NCBI GenBank assembly: GCA_021160725.1 | Contig: JAGHCA010000016.1 | Coordinates: forward strand, 1-40,997 | Reading direction: 5' to 3' | Source of the DNA: Dehalococcoidia bacterium | Lineage (GTDB): Bacteria; Chloroflexota; Dehalococcoidia; GIF9; AB-539-J10 | Length of the DNA stretch: 40,997 bases | Part shown: positions 25,023 through 29,848 of the stretch, piece by piece | Layout: every line of letters begins with the position of its first letter | Numbering within the stretch: position 1 is the stretch's first letter | Program-made: the position numbers and the translations under genes | Notes under the pieces: model-generated | The model's input: only the letters and a program-made list of their open reading frames with translations | Told to the model about the DNA's origin: nothing | Database searches by the model: none

Positions 25023-25583
25023 TTAACCTGCTTTCTCTTGATATTCCCCGGTGCGTGTATTAACCTTGATTATGTCGCCTGGATTAATGAAGAGAGGAAC
25101 CTGAATGGTTATCCCTGTTTCCAGCTTAGCTGCCTTAGTGCCTGCGGTTGCTCTGTCTCCTTTGAAACCAGGTTCTGTTTCTATGACCTGAAGCTCCACA
25201 GAATTAGGTAGCTCTATAGCCACTATGTCTGTCTTGCTGGTTAGAACCTCTAGCGGCAGTCCTTCTTTTAGGTAATTTGTGCCCTCTCCTATTTGAGCAG
25301 AAGTTAACATAATTTGCTCGTAACTCTCATTATCCATGAAATAATAAATGTCGCCATCGTTATAAAGGTACTGGACGGGACGGTGTTCTAGAAATACTGG
25401 TGTGACTTTGTCTCCGGATTGGAAATTCCGCTCGGCGACATTCCCGCTACGAACATCACGAAGTTTCAATTTGACTATAGGCTGCCTTTGTTGCATCTTA
25501 ACGTGTTGATATTCCAGAATCTGATATATTTCGCCATCTAATTCTATGGCAGCTCCCTTTCTCAATTCTCCAGCATCAATCAT
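25023..25583 (-). CDS. efp: Elongation factor P with atypical loop
   Basis: EF-P enters the ribosomal E site and relieves stalling at polyproline. The 186-aa protein has the three beta-barrel domains, with VQYLYNDGDIYYFMDNESYEQ and the C-terminal GDIIKVNTRTGEY intact. The tip loop, normally VKPGKG with a modified Lys at 34, reads VKMQQRQP (28-35): Gln32 replaces the Lys and Arg33 follows, so lysylation, hydroxylation or 5-aminopentanolation at that site is impossible. AGGAGGT precedes the ATG. Its usual partner pepP lies upstream, but an S23 cassette now separates them. Confidence 0.95.
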   Translation of the reverse strand: MIDAGELRKGAAIELDGEIYQILEYQHVKMQQRQPIVKLKLRDVRSGNVAERNFQSGDKVTPVFLEHRPVQYLYNDGDIYYFMDNESYEQIMLTSAQIGEGTNYLKEGLPLEVLTSKTDIVAIELPNSVELQVIETEPGFKGDRATAGTKAAKLETGITIQVPLFINPGDIIKVNTRTGEYQEKAG

Positions 25584-25611
25584 TTAGTAACCTCCTGGTT
25601 AAGTATTCAGC

Positions 25612-26048
25612 CCTCAGCTATCAGCTGGCAGCATCCAGTTTTTGCATCAATCTCGTAAGCATACGTTTTACTTCCGTTACTTGGTTATTCAACTCTTCAT
25701 GAGTTTTTGTACCCAAGTATTTCAGGTCTTGGGCCAGAATCAGGTAATATTCAGTTTCGCTAGCGCTCCTTGAAGCAATTTCTAAAAAGCGGGCGAACTC
25801 GCGATTTCCATTACACCCGCATCCCTCTGCAATATTTGCCGGAACTGATGAAGCAGCTCTTCGAAGCTGACTTATCAATCCGTAGGTTTCTTCTCGAGGA
25901 AAGAGCGGTGTAATCTTATATACAGATAGTGACAACTCATGGCTTTTTGCCATACCTTCAAGCTTTTGAAATTTCTCATCGCTAAGCTCTTGATGGACAC
26001 TTGCCAGTGTTCGGTATATTACTGATTGCTGCTAACTGAAAGCTGAAA
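25612..26048 (-). mobile_element. S23/four-helix-bundle cassette with inverted ends
   Basis: A 437-bp segment carrying the S23-type gene is bounded by 21-bp imperfect inverted repeats (left CCTCAGCTATCAGCTGGCAGC, right GCTGCTAACTGAAAGCTGAAA; 16 of 21 match). It sits exactly between pepP and efp, which are usually adjacent. The right repeat encodes the last residues of PepP. No transposase is present. Confidence 0.55.
25621..25979 (-). pseudogene. Four-helix-bundle (S23, IVS-type) protein, frameshifted
   Basis: The family is encoded by intervening sequences of 23S rRNA and by stand-alone cassettes; its function is unknown. The normal start MRNFKSLKVWQKA is present from ATG at 25979 but is one base out of frame with the rest, HELSLSVYKITPLFPREETYGLISQLRRAASSVPANIAEGCG, which runs to 25621. 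The missing base lies near the T5 run at 25944-25948. The ORF-track product (110 aa from 25953) is the downstream frame only and lacks the first helix. The body is otherwise intact, so the lesion may be recent, a sequencing error, or bypassed by an internal start. Confidence 0.75.
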
Positions 26049-27176
26049 GCTATTTTTCTCTGCCTTGGTCAGCACTCTGGCCTTGCCATTTTCCAAAACT
26101 ACCATATCCTCAATTCTAACACCACCTTGTCCCTCAAGATAAATTCCCGGTTCTATAGTAAAAACCATGCCATCTGCAAGTGAATTAGAGGAATTGGGAC
26201 TAAGTGTGGGAAGTTCATGCACCGCTAGTCCAACACCATGTCCCAGACCATGTCCAAAGGCATCTCCGTAACCAGCTTCTTCAACAATGCTTCGCGCCAA
26301 TCGGTCTGCCTGTGAAGCATCCATGCCCGATTCAATTCCCTCTATAGCAGTAATCTGTGCTTTGAGAACTATATCATAAATTTCCCGTAGGATTTTATCT
26401 GTCTTGCCCAAGAGCAAGGTGCGGCTGAGGTCGCTACAATAACCGTTAGTTCTGGCACCCATGTCAATCAATACTGGTTCACCAGGGTGCATTATTTTTT
26501 CCGTAGGTTGAGCGTGGGGCAAAGCTGAATTGGTGCCTGAAGCTACAATGATTTCAAAGGGGATGCCCTCACTGTCTTCTTGACGAAGAAATTTTTCTAT
26601 CTGCCATGCCGCCTCCTTTTCTGTTATGCCGGGGCGGATTATTGCTTTGGCCTGTTCAAAAGCGGCGTCAACTAGAGCTACTGCCTTGGTGATGAACTCC
26701 AGCTCTTGAGGCTCTTTTATGCAGCGAAGCTGCTCTACTATGTCGGTGGTGGGCACAAGCGAAAGGTCAATTTGCTTGGTCTTTATTGTCTCGTTGAGCT
26801 TGTGGTGAGTATTGTAGGAGATGTAGTTTGACTCGAAACCTAATTTGTGCCACCTGAAATCAGAGGCCAAATCAGGAAGCCAATTACTCAACTCTCGTTT
26901 AGCCTGGATAATTTCAAAATCTGGTGACTCCTTCTTGGCTTGCTCCACATAGCGAAAATCGGTAGCCAAAATATTCTTTTTCTCCGAAATAAGGAGCCAT
27001 CCTGATGAGCCGGTAAATCCGGAAAGGTAGCGGCAGTTCTCTGGCTGAGAAAGCAAGAGAGCATCTAGTTCCTTTTCGGAGATCGCCGTTCGCAGCTTCT
27101 GCAACCTCTTTATTCCCGACTTTCTTCCCGGGTCACCGATAATTCTATTCTTCATTTCGAGCCTCTCTTTACCCAT
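26019..27176 (-). CDS. pepP: Xaa-Pro aminopeptidase (M24B)
   Basis: This metallopeptidase removes N-terminal residues preceding proline. The 385-aa protein has a creatinase N-terminal domain (about 20-150) and a pita-bread catalytic domain with the five metal ligands: two Asp in IDMGARTNGYCSDLSRT, His in GHGLGHGVGLAVHELP, and Glu in FTIEPGIYL and GVRIEDMVVL. The first about 15 residues are not family-like, so the real start may be an internal codon. The C-terminal tail NSFQLSVSSNQ is encoded by the inverted repeat of the S23 cassette. It lies 30 nt after mgtE. Confidence 0.94.
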   Translation of the reverse strand: MGKERLEMKNRIIGDPGRKSGIKRLQKLRTAISEKELDALLLSQPENCRYLSGFTGSSGWLLISEKKNILATDFRYVEQAKKESPDFEIIQAKRELSNWLPDLASDFRWHKLGFESNYISYNTHHKLNETIKTKQIDLSLVPTTDIVEQLRCIKEPQELEFITKAVALVDAAFEQAKAIIRPGITEKEAAWQIEKFLRQEDSEGIPFEIIVASGTNSALPHAQPTEKIMHPGEPVLIDMGARTNGYCSDLSRTLLLGKTDKILREIYDIVLKAQITAIEGIESGMDASQADRLARSIVEEAGYGDAFGHGLGHGVGLAVHELPTLSPNSSNSLADGMVFTIEPGIYLEGQGGVRIEDMVVLENGKARVLTKAEKNSFQLSVSSNQ

Positions 27177-27206
27177 GAAATTTTATATCTTGTTTCGCTA
27201 GGCTGA

Positions 27207-28583
27207 TTACAATCCCAGTATCAAGTATGCAATCCCGAAATAAACCGCCACGCCGAATATGTCCATGATCGTAGTTATAAAAGGGGCAGAGACCAGAGCA
27301 GGGTCAATCTTGAGTAAACGGAAGATGAATGGTAAGGCTCCGCCTGTCAGGGTTGCCACCACAGAGATAGCCACCAGCGTCGTGCTTACTACTATGGCTA
27401 CTTTGAGGTTCCCGCTGCCGATCATGTAAGACCAGCCCAGGGCAACTGCACCAAGGATAATGCCCAGGAGGGCACCTATCCCGACTTCTCGCAGGATCAC
27501 AGCTAGAGCCCGTCTTGGGTTTACCTCCCCGGTAGCTAGTCCTCGAATGACGACGGTGGCAGATTGTGCTCCTACGTTTCCGCCGGTGCCAATCAATAAT
27601 GGAATAAAGGCAGCCATTATCAATAACTCGCCGAGCAACTCTTGCTGTCGGGCGATAATAGCTCCGGTAACTGTGTTCACCACGATAAGCAAGAAGAGCC
27701 AGGGGGCTCGGCGCCGGACAACACTGAGGATACGGCTGGTAAAGTAACCTCGCTCTGTACCAGGTACGGCACCGAAGCGATAGATATCCTCGGTAGCCTC
27801 TTGCTCGATGATGTCCGCTACATCATCATAGGTGATGATGCCGACCAGACGCTGTTCGGCATCGACTACCGGAATTGCCAGAAGATCGTGCTCACGGAGT
27901 TCCTTGGCCGCCTCCTCCCGGTCAGCATGGGTGAAGACGAACGAGGGGTTTGGCTTCATGATGTCGGCCACCCTGACATCCGGGTCAGCAATGACCAGGT
28001 CTTTGAGTGAAACAGTGCCTATAAGATGGCGGCGGCGATCCATGACGTAGCACTCGTAGACAGTCTCCCGGTTGATGGCCAGCCGCCGGACCCTTTCCAG
28101 AGCCTGTGCCACAGTCATATCGCTGTGTAAGTCTACGAATAGAGGAGTCATCTCACGCCCGGCTGTTCCTTCCTCATAACCTAACAACTGCATGGTGACA
28201 CGGCGCTGGTCAGGCGAGAGTATCTGTAGCAGCCTGCGGGCTACCTTGGCGGGCACCTCGTCAAACAGCTCCGTTCGGTCATCAGGTGGCATCGCTTCGA
28301 GGAAGCTTCTGGCTGCTTGGTCACTGAAAGCTTCAAGCAGTTGGTTCTGGAAAGCTCCATCCACATAGTCGAAAACAGAAATAGCAAGATCCTTTGGGAG
28401 GAGGCGAAATGCTATAACTGCTTGGTCTGACGGGATACTGGCTAGCAGGTCGGCGATGTCTGCAGGCTCTGAAGCTGCTAGCCTCTCCCGCAACGCTCTA
28501 TATTGCTTGTTCTCCAACAGGTCTTTGAATGTGTTTTCATCCAAAGACTCTGTGGGTAGATTCTCTGTAAACTGTTCGCTCAT
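27207..28583 (-). CDS. mgtE: Magnesium transporter MgtE
   Basis: MgtE is a homodimeric Mg2+ channel gated by cytoplasmic Mg2+. From ATG at 28583 it has 458 aa. The ORF-track start adds 16 residues that lie on the terminator hairpin. Order: an MgtE N domain (about 20-125), two CBS domains (about 130-255) and five transmembrane helices (about 275-458). Conserved IGTGGNVGAQSATVVIRGLATGEV and DPALVSAPFITTIMDIFG (the pore Asp region) are present. The start is preceded by an intrinsic terminator that can form an alternative pairing (see the leader feature). Confidence 0.96.
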   Translation of the reverse strand: MSEQFTENLPTESLDENTFKDLLENKQYRALRERLAASEPADIADLLASIPSDQAVIAFRLLPKDLAISVFDYVDGAFQNQLLEAFSDQAARSFLEAMPPDDRTELFDEVPAKVARRLLQILSPDQRRVTMQLLGYEEGTAGREMTPLFVDLHSDMTVAQALERVRRLAINRETVYECYVMDRRRHLIGTVSLKDLVIADPDVRVADIMKPNPSFVFTHADREEAAKELREHDLLAIPVVDAEQRLVGIITYDDVADIIEQEATEDIYRFGAVPGTERGYFTSRILSVVRRRAPWLFLLIVVNTVTGAIIARQQELLGELLIMAAFIPLLIGTGGNVGAQSATVVIRGLATGEVNPRRALAVILREVGIGALLGIILGAVALGWSYMIGSGNLKVAIVVSTTLVAISVVATLTGGALPFIFRLLKIDPALVSAPFITTIMDIFGVAVYFGIAYLILGL

Positions 28584-28596
28584 TTTACAGGCAAAC

Positions 28597-28673
28597 AAAA
28601 AGCCCCACGTCCGGTGGGACGTGGGGCGCAAACGCCTCCCTCAGATATCTATACTAAGGCAAACCCCACCACC
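28597..28673 (-). promoter_or_regulatory. Terminator and possible anti-terminator in the mgtE leader
   Basis: On the minus strand GCCCCACGTCC-CACC-GGACGTGGGGC followed by TTTTTG (28627-28597) is a strong intrinsic terminator ending 13 nt before the mgtE ATG. Upstream, GGTGGTGGGG (28673-28664) can instead pair with CCCCA and CCACC of the 5' arm and loop. This mutually exclusive pairing is what an attenuation or riboswitch mechanism needs. No full M-box consensus was recognised. Confidence 0.6.
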
Positions 28674-28980
28674 GAACTAAAATGCCAATCTGTCGTCGTT
28701 TATGATCTGGGTCTGGTGATGCTCTCGTTTCCATACCTTGTATCTCTTTCCGCGGACGATTATAATCCTCTCGTATAACCATGTCAATACGGCAAAGATT
28801 CTCAGTCGCAGTACACAGGCATCCAAACCACTCAGATTCCAACAGGCATAGCCCCCGACCACGATGCGCTTGTTAGGGATAATTAGGTGTCCATTTTGTC
28901 TATTTCACAGCACCAGCCCTTTCATTTTACTTGGTGTTCTAGTACTATAACAGGTCACCTGCTTGGAAAGGTTTCTACAC
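28632..28980. other. Leader region of mgtE and divergent spacer
   Basis: About 350 bp upstream of mgtE. On the minus strand a frame of about 60 codons ends AF-stop at 28677 and contains LRLRIFAVLTWLYERIIIVRGKRYKVWKRE; it has a weak start and no Shine-Dalgarno, so I do not call it a gene. The palindrome CAGGT-C-ACCTG is at 28951-28961. A TATAAC -10-like hexamer on the plus strand (28946) could serve the tiny ORF at 28981. Confidence 0.35.
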
Positions 28981-29284: not shown

Positions 29285-29842
29285 CTAGTAGACGCGAGTT
29301 GATGAAAGGATATAGTTAGCAATCTTCTGAATTGATGCCCAGTCTTGGCTTGTCGGCTCAAATCGCCTATCTATCTGCAGCGTCCATCCATGGAATTCCT
29401 TGGCATAGCTGTGAATTGTCAAATTCCCAATCCTTTTCGCCAAATTCTTTACTGATTCATCGTTGGAAAGAACCTCGATTAGCCCGGTATGATGATCGTT
29501 ACCTTTCCAGGTCACATCTACCACTTTCCCGAACAATGGAAATGTCTTTTTCCTGATTGTCTTGATATCAACTGCCTTGTGGTTTGAGAGAGGTCTCTCG
29601 TCTGGTATACCAAGAATGACCCACCATTGAGGAGGGCTTCTGCCACTACTATCTTTTTTCAAGATATTTATCCACCTGATCAGTCCGTCTGGTATGTCTA
29701 TTATCCCCAAAGAACGTTGATACCATGAGTTCTCTACTTTCTCTTCGGGCCGGCCGCGTTCAGCCAGCTCTGCTCTAATACCCAGGGAGTTGAGGTTTCG
29801 AGCAAGATTATCTCTTGTCTTATCACGAAATAGGTCTTTCAT
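29285..29842 (-). CDS. Orphan hypothetical protein, 185 aa
   Basis: I do not recognise this family. From ATG at 29842 (the track uses a TTG two codons earlier) the 185-aa product starts MKDLFRDKTRDNLARNLNSLG, is soluble and rich in Lys, Arg and Trp. It carries PPQWWVILGIPDERPLSNHKAVD and TWKGNDHHTGLIEVL, with a conserved-looking Trp/His pattern in the middle. Its promoter region has TATAAT at 29871-29866 and shares CTATGGTAT with the recA promoter. It stands alone among intergenic DNA. It is probably a real gene, given its length and no competing frame. Confidence 0.55.
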   Translation of the reverse strand: MKDLFRDKTRDNLARNLNSLGIRAELAERGRPEEKVENSWYQRSLGIIDIPDGLIRWINILKKDSSGRSPPQWWVILGIPDERPLSNHKAVDIKTIRKKTFPLFGKVVDVTWKGNDHHTGLIEVLSNDESVKNLAKRIGNLTIHSYAKEFHGWTLQIDRRFEPTSQDWASIQKIANYILSSTRVY

Positions 29843-29848
29843 GCGCAA

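Follow-up and report, generated by a model that had tools for sequence, protein, structure and literature searches.

Genes and features of the locus

The window, that is, the whole stretch of 40,997 nt that was analysed, comes from a Dehalococcoidia bacterium, and the relatives bearing the leader described below are Dehalococcoidia MAGs. A run of four genes on one strand (25023-28583, minus strand) is arranged in the order mgtE, Xaa-Pro peptidase, four-helix-bundle protein and efp. The identity of mgtE (27207-28583, minus strand, 458 aa, start codon ATG at 28583-28581), the gene of a Mg2+ importer, was confirmed by family matches (TIGR00400 at 490 bits, PF01769, PF03448 and CBS). The Xaa-Pro peptidase (M24) gene (26019-27176, minus strand) lies 30 nt 3' of mgtE and is probably in one operon with it. 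The last gene of the run (25023-25583, minus strand) was named efp, for elongation factor P, from its sequence and position. Upstream of the leader, on the same strand, is a 187-aa ORF (29285-29848, minus strand) that had no Pfam or NCBIfam match.

A sigma-70 type promoter (TTGACA-17-TATAAT, 28759-28787, minus strand) agrees with the consensus at 12 of 12 positions, and the leader RNA from this promoter (28787-28759) to the terminator is about 155 nt long. Between the two lies a leader ORF, METRASPDPDHKRRQIGILVRWWGLP*, of 26 codons plus TAG (28654-28734, minus strand), with a weak Shine-Dalgarno sequence. Both the perfect promoter and this ORF (28734-28654) had been overlooked in the initial annotation. 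The peptide starts METRASPDPDH..., with KRR following PDPD, and the codons of this acidic/proline motif (P7-D8-P9-D10, 28705-28716, minus strand) are where we propose that ribosomes drop off in a Mg2+-sensitive way. The strand GGTGGTGGGG (28664-28673, minus strand), which had been put forward as an anti-terminator and is here called R1, turned out to be the RWWG codons (R21-W22-W23-G24) of the same ORF. The 26-nt gap from the stop codon to the terminator (R2, 28628-28653, minus strand) contains a small hairpin in most relatives. The intrinsic terminator hairpin, GCCCCACGTCC-CACC-GGACGTGGGGC (28602-28627, minus strand), has 11 bp, 9 of them G-C, and consists of the 5' arm R3 (28627-28617), the loop (28616-28613) and the 3' arm R4 (28612-28602), followed by the tract TTTTT (28597-28601, minus strand). 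Between the end of this terminator and the mgtE ATG there are 13 nt. The stem length, CACC loop, T5 tract and 13-nt spacing given in the initial annotation were all confirmed in the sequence, and between 24 and 34 kb of the window this was by far the strongest terminator-like site.

Conservation within the genus

A DNA search recovered the leader from 15 genomes of the same genus besides the source, one of them (L016) retaining only the last 41 nt. Thirteen intact leaders encode METKSSPDPDHKRRQIAIFVRWWWGL[LP], with variations, and residues M1, E2, S6, P7, P9, D10, R14, V20, R21, W22, W23, G24 and L25 are invariant or nearly so among them. In the annotated frame pS was 0.36 and pN 0.14 for these 13 leaders, versus about equal values when the frame was shifted by one or two bases. 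Such comparisons support a leader that evolves as coding sequence, with a putatively translated short ORF placed before a Mg2+ importer gene. Both promoter hexamers are invariant across 15 aligned leaders, the stop codon lies 25-26 nt before the terminator in every intact genus leader, and the promoter has been kept together with the ORF and the terminator, as a unit of fixed spacing. The earlier view of this region as an attenuator was borne out: the terminator is conserved, the space between it and mgtE cannot hold a promoter, and an invariant strong promoter lies 5' of the leader.

Terminator, anti-terminator pairing and folding

R1 is able to base-pair with the 5' arm and the loop of the terminator. 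Retention of this pairing in related genomes had been set in advance as the check on the anti-terminator, and the pairing is indeed kept in the genus, mostly through invariance and with little covariation. When covarying stems were sought in the leader alignment, two of the three helices gave some signal: terminator stem cells were paired in 98.8% of cases (15 leaders) with compensatory changes at two pairs, which shows the terminator to be under selection, and R1:R3 cells in 95%, a single pair being compensatory (in L015, where U-A has become C-G). No compensatory change was found in the R2 hairpin.

The leader region folded better than all of 200 shuffled sequences (z -2.4). In nascent RNA lacking R4, R1:R3 together with the hairpin that it encloses amounted to -20.5 to -31 kcal/mol in the genus leaders and the terminator hairpin to -19 to -23 kcal/mol, so that the former was at least as stable as the terminator in 12 of 13 leaders. 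When a mask the size of a ribosome was placed at the stop codon, covering R1, only -5 to -11 kcal/mol remained. At full-length equilibrium the terminator won in the genus leaders whatever mask was applied and a ribosome-dependent switch was not seen; because of this, a switch in the genus must be kinetic. The only folded leader with a clear equilibrium switch was L336, in which the terminator probability was 0.08 for free RNA and rose to 0.98 once a ribosome occupied the stop codon, the predicted direction.

Genomes that have lost mgtE

In two genomes (G019 and G015, carrying leaders L012 and L013, respectively) mgtE is gone at the same junction, GGAAGCATTGTAATCAGCTTA, and no MgtE_N match was found in either. 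From the sequence this looks like one shared deletion. Their leaders persist, now in front of the peptidase-efp genes, and have decayed: L012 has lost its ATG and acquired an internal TAG, and L013 carries P7L, K-to-E and G-to-D changes. In both, R1 has changed from GGGGC to GGGAC, which breaks R1:R3 and is probably a single event common to the two. CorA is present in these two genomes and absent from most of the leader-bearing ones. Within the genus (G000-G019) MgtE and CorA were nearly complementary, genomes with leader and mgtE mostly lacking CorA and the reverse.

Leaders beyond the genus

A profile of the leader peptide, run against 393 genomes of the class, yielded no convincing match beyond the genus apart from G272, whose leader (E 0.008) was recognised solely through its position before mgtE. 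Since short peptides are poor queries, we located divergent leaders by inspecting the sequence 5' of mgtE genes. The leaders of f77 (METKSDREPDKRENKFVCVQWVMPKVALE and relatives) and f112 (MEAKSSPEPDDKRGQVNIFIRWMTVVQALG) share the start [ME][EK][TA]KS...EPD.KR and vary at the C-terminus; f100 has MSTNTSSDIDDKRRMLSFFLRCGALSPMQI. In the sister genus g13 (MNSDSDQDNRSRRRRLKICRATGRAMAP) the leaders start MNSDSDQDNR, MDADTDQGD, MEADSDSGD, MESDSEQGD, MNEDTDQDG and MDADSDPGN, and each precedes a terminator and an mgtE copy. Tandem mgtE copies occur in this genus, and every copy is preceded by an acidic leader and a terminator of its own (L242, L247, L248, L072, L244, L249). G085 has MDADPSGDRS... and G112 has MDIDLPSSKPKQP..., and in other classes of Chloroflexota the leaders start MNDDDLAGDR, MSDSDSSPRTKR and MDADGSKSSDD (as listed more fully, MNDDDLAGDRYF..., MSDSDSSPRTKRP... 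and MDADGSKSSDD...).

In these divergent leaders the distance from stop codon to terminator is mostly 23-30 nt, although G112 and G085 have 38-42 nt, and promoter-like sites were seen upstream of many, not all. The ATG of L257 follows the -10 box by about 8 nt, and for that reason its mRNA may be leaderless when translated. An R1:R3 helix like that of the genus was not found in the f77 and g13 leaders, in which the partner of R3 differs, and their expression platform may accordingly be a different one. The evidence is stronger for the sensor part than for the exact form of the expression platform. In a further Chloroflexota family, with the start seen in f129 (L309, L310, L311, L314), the leader is conserved but not acidic (MDSSHSRQR...GLIG..CR..*), and from its end it is 22-25 nt to a terminator, followed by mgtE.

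Outside the genus, nine families or lineages have [DE]x[DE] or [DE][DE] within residues 2-12 of the leader. Among those with a terminator before mgtE, an acidic ORF was present in 9 of about 18 (f1/g13, f77, f112, f100, G085, G112, f152, f167 and f123, as against f59, f26, f36, f28, f11, f129, f149, f143 and f139). Dinucleotide shuffles of the source leader and of the divergent acidic-leader loci gave an expectation of 1-7% per locus. Calculated by hand, the binomial probability of at least 9 of 18 families at 5% each is near 6e-8, and that of 7 of 16, with two sequence-similar families left out, is near 6e-6; both figures apply to a motif chosen after the genus had been seen and to families that are not fully independent. 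Scanning of the Chloroflexota loci yielded 77 distinct terminators. For 27 of them an acidic ORF came to its end 18-45 nt upstream, and 26 of these 27 pairs stood directly before mgtE. No acidic-ORF/terminator pair was found at corA loci of the same order (n = 27) or at mgtE loci of other phyla (Cyanobacteria, Clostridia and others, n = 69). Judged from these sequences, the same design, built from unrelated peptides with a common acidic [DE]x[DE] start, is present before mgtE in several Chloroflexota lineages.

Proposed mechanism and alternatives

The explanation that we favour, and hold to be rather probable, is a translation-dependent transcription attenuator of mgtE that answers Mg2+ through a short acidic leader peptide acting as the sensor. 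It probably also controls the peptidase-efp genes behind mgtE. The sequence supports the promoter, the coding leader and the terminator, the joint conservation of all three and the association with mgtE; we infer that the leader is translated in the cell and that drop-off depends on Mg2+, and also the polarity and a kinetic anti-terminator. The conserved promoter sequence suggests that leader RNA would be made constitutively and at a high rate, and the coding-type evolution suggests that a ribosome would translate METRASPDPDH.... By analogy with MgtL, ribosomes making PDPD in low Mg2+ would be unstable and fall off. Drop-off would free R1, which could pair with R3 (a conserved pairing) before R4 is made, and polymerase would then read through into mgtE. 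With sufficient Mg2+ the ribosome would get as far as the stop codon, which precedes the terminator by 26 nt, and cover R1 and not the hairpin; with R1 masked, the terminator would form and mgtE would be off. Because mgtE is the sole MgtE-family gene of the source genome and no CorA gene was found there, the leader may set the Mg2+ import of the cell. It may also influence efp expression, because EF-P itself serves proline-containing leader peptides.

The same architecture could report not on Mg2+ but on the general state of translation, for example the supply of ribosomes or ATP or the activity of EF-P; the acidic N-terminus would then merely tune how the leader is translated. The presence of efp in the gene run of mgtE, the action of EF-P on the proline codons of MgtL in Salmonella (PMC6460261) and the existence of Chloroflexota mgtE leaders of the same layout that are non-acidic (f129, MDSSHSRQR...) fit such a signal. 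We nevertheless regard it as unlikely, given that 26 of the 27 acidic leaders found precede a Mg2+ importer and that the known Mg2+-related destabilisers are acidic nascent chains (PMC11282234, PMC8092293, PMC11552253). Control by amino-acid starvation, with stalling at the Trp (or Pro/Asp) codons of the leader as in trp-type attenuators, appeared improbable. RWWWG is conserved in the genus with its Trp codons near the stop codon, and the Salmonella mgtA leader also answers proline-tRNA supply via mgtL (PMC6460261), but the number of Trp residues in the genus varies from one to three (WWW, WW, RWRW, RRRW) while the nucleotides GGTGGG stay. Leaders of f77 have one Trp and those of g13 none at that place, yet both keep the acidic start and the terminator. 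Stalling at WWW would moreover place the ribosome over R1 and so promote termination, a response of the wrong sign, and the gene under control is a Mg2+ importer. Lack of conservation of the Trp codons was our ground for setting Trp sensing aside.

The initial annotation had also considered a riboswitch, perhaps a diverged M-box, although it could not recognise the M-box consensus. A diverged M-box or a new Mg2+ riboswitch with an RNA aptamer would suit the position before mgtE, the terminator and the stable fold of the leader, and for the enterobacterial mgtA the RNA's own sensing of Mg2+ is still debated (PMC11552253). In agreement with the unrecognised consensus, however, the Rfam search at gathering and relaxed thresholds returned only chance-level matches of unrelated families, with no M-box and nothing near a gathering score. 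The conserved element evolves as a peptide-coding frame and not as an aptamer, and related mgtE leaders have an acidic start in common, not a fold; the riboswitch reading did not stand up and we consider it highly improbable. That the hairpin is simply the end of an upstream transcript, with an incidental leader ORF, is the idea to which we give almost no credence. Ends of transcription units look like terminators too, and the 187-aa ORF of no known family does lie upstream on the same strand, but about 500 nt separate its end from the leader promoter, a promoter does not fit into the 13 nt that follow the terminator, and promoter, ORF and terminator are conserved together at fixed spacing.

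Taken more widely, the attenuator with an acidic leader peptide could represent a Mg2+ sensor class found across the phylum Chloroflexota, in which ribosome drop-off on acidic leaders controls intrinsic termination before mgtE and the peptides diverge while keeping a destabilising acidic start; we see the chances of this as evenly balanced. Mg2+ sensing by ribosome destabilisation is so far known from a few enterobacterial leaders (mgtL, mgtQ). No literature on mgtE leader peptides, or on such control in Chloroflexi, was found in a search that covered subscription papers only in small part. If the proposal is true, the ribosome would be a recurrent Mg2+ sensor that serves another transporter family beyond the enterobacteria. 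A conserved, independent-looking set from a distant phylum, with another transporter and a simple intrinsic terminator, would make sensing by destabilisation a general strategy, and the Chloroflexota leaders would supply a large choice of natural peptides with which to test what kinds of nascent chain render ribosomes Mg2+-dependent.

Comparison with known systems

In the mgtL leader of mgtA (Escherichia coli, Salmonella), ribosomes drop off at EPDP in low Mg2+, the mRNA refolds and mgtA is transcribed; in high Mg2+ translation completes and expression falls (PMC11282234, PMC11552253). EF-P acts through the proline codons of MgtL (PMC6460261). The leader described here resembles mgtL in having a short leader ORF, a gene for a Mg2+ importer and acidic/proline N-terminal codons (EPDP there, PDPD here). 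It differs in its transporter, which is MgtE in Chloroflexota whereas that of mgtL is a P-type ATPase in another phylum, in its intrinsic terminator 26 nt past the stop codon, where the Salmonella mgtA leader uses Rho-dependent termination, and in the position of the motif (residues 7-10 versus 2-5 in MgtL). We propose by analogy that it acts like MgtL, and do not file it as MgtL: termination is intrinsic, and the peptides are too short and too different to argue common descent.

In mgtQ, which lies between mgtC and mgtB in Salmonella, Asp and Glu codons of a tiny ORF likewise destabilise the ribosome and switch stem-loops before a Mg2+ importer gene, Asp2 and Glu5 being required for mgtB translation (PMC8092293). 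However, mgtQ acts on translation initiation within an operon, whereas the likely target here is an intrinsic terminator in a 5' leader. The M-box (ykoK) is likewise a leader RNA that controls Mg2+ transporter genes in other bacteria, but here an ORF takes the place of a common aptamer fold as the conserved element. With trp-type attenuators the leader shares a leader peptide, mutually exclusive hairpins and an intrinsic terminator before the gene; as in leader-peptide attenuators generally, the terminator lies between ORF and gene and its 5' arm has an alternative pairing. In contrast to the trp type, there is no regular run of codons for one amino acid, the target is a Mg2+ importer, and the anti-terminator strand is formed by the last codons of the ORF itself.
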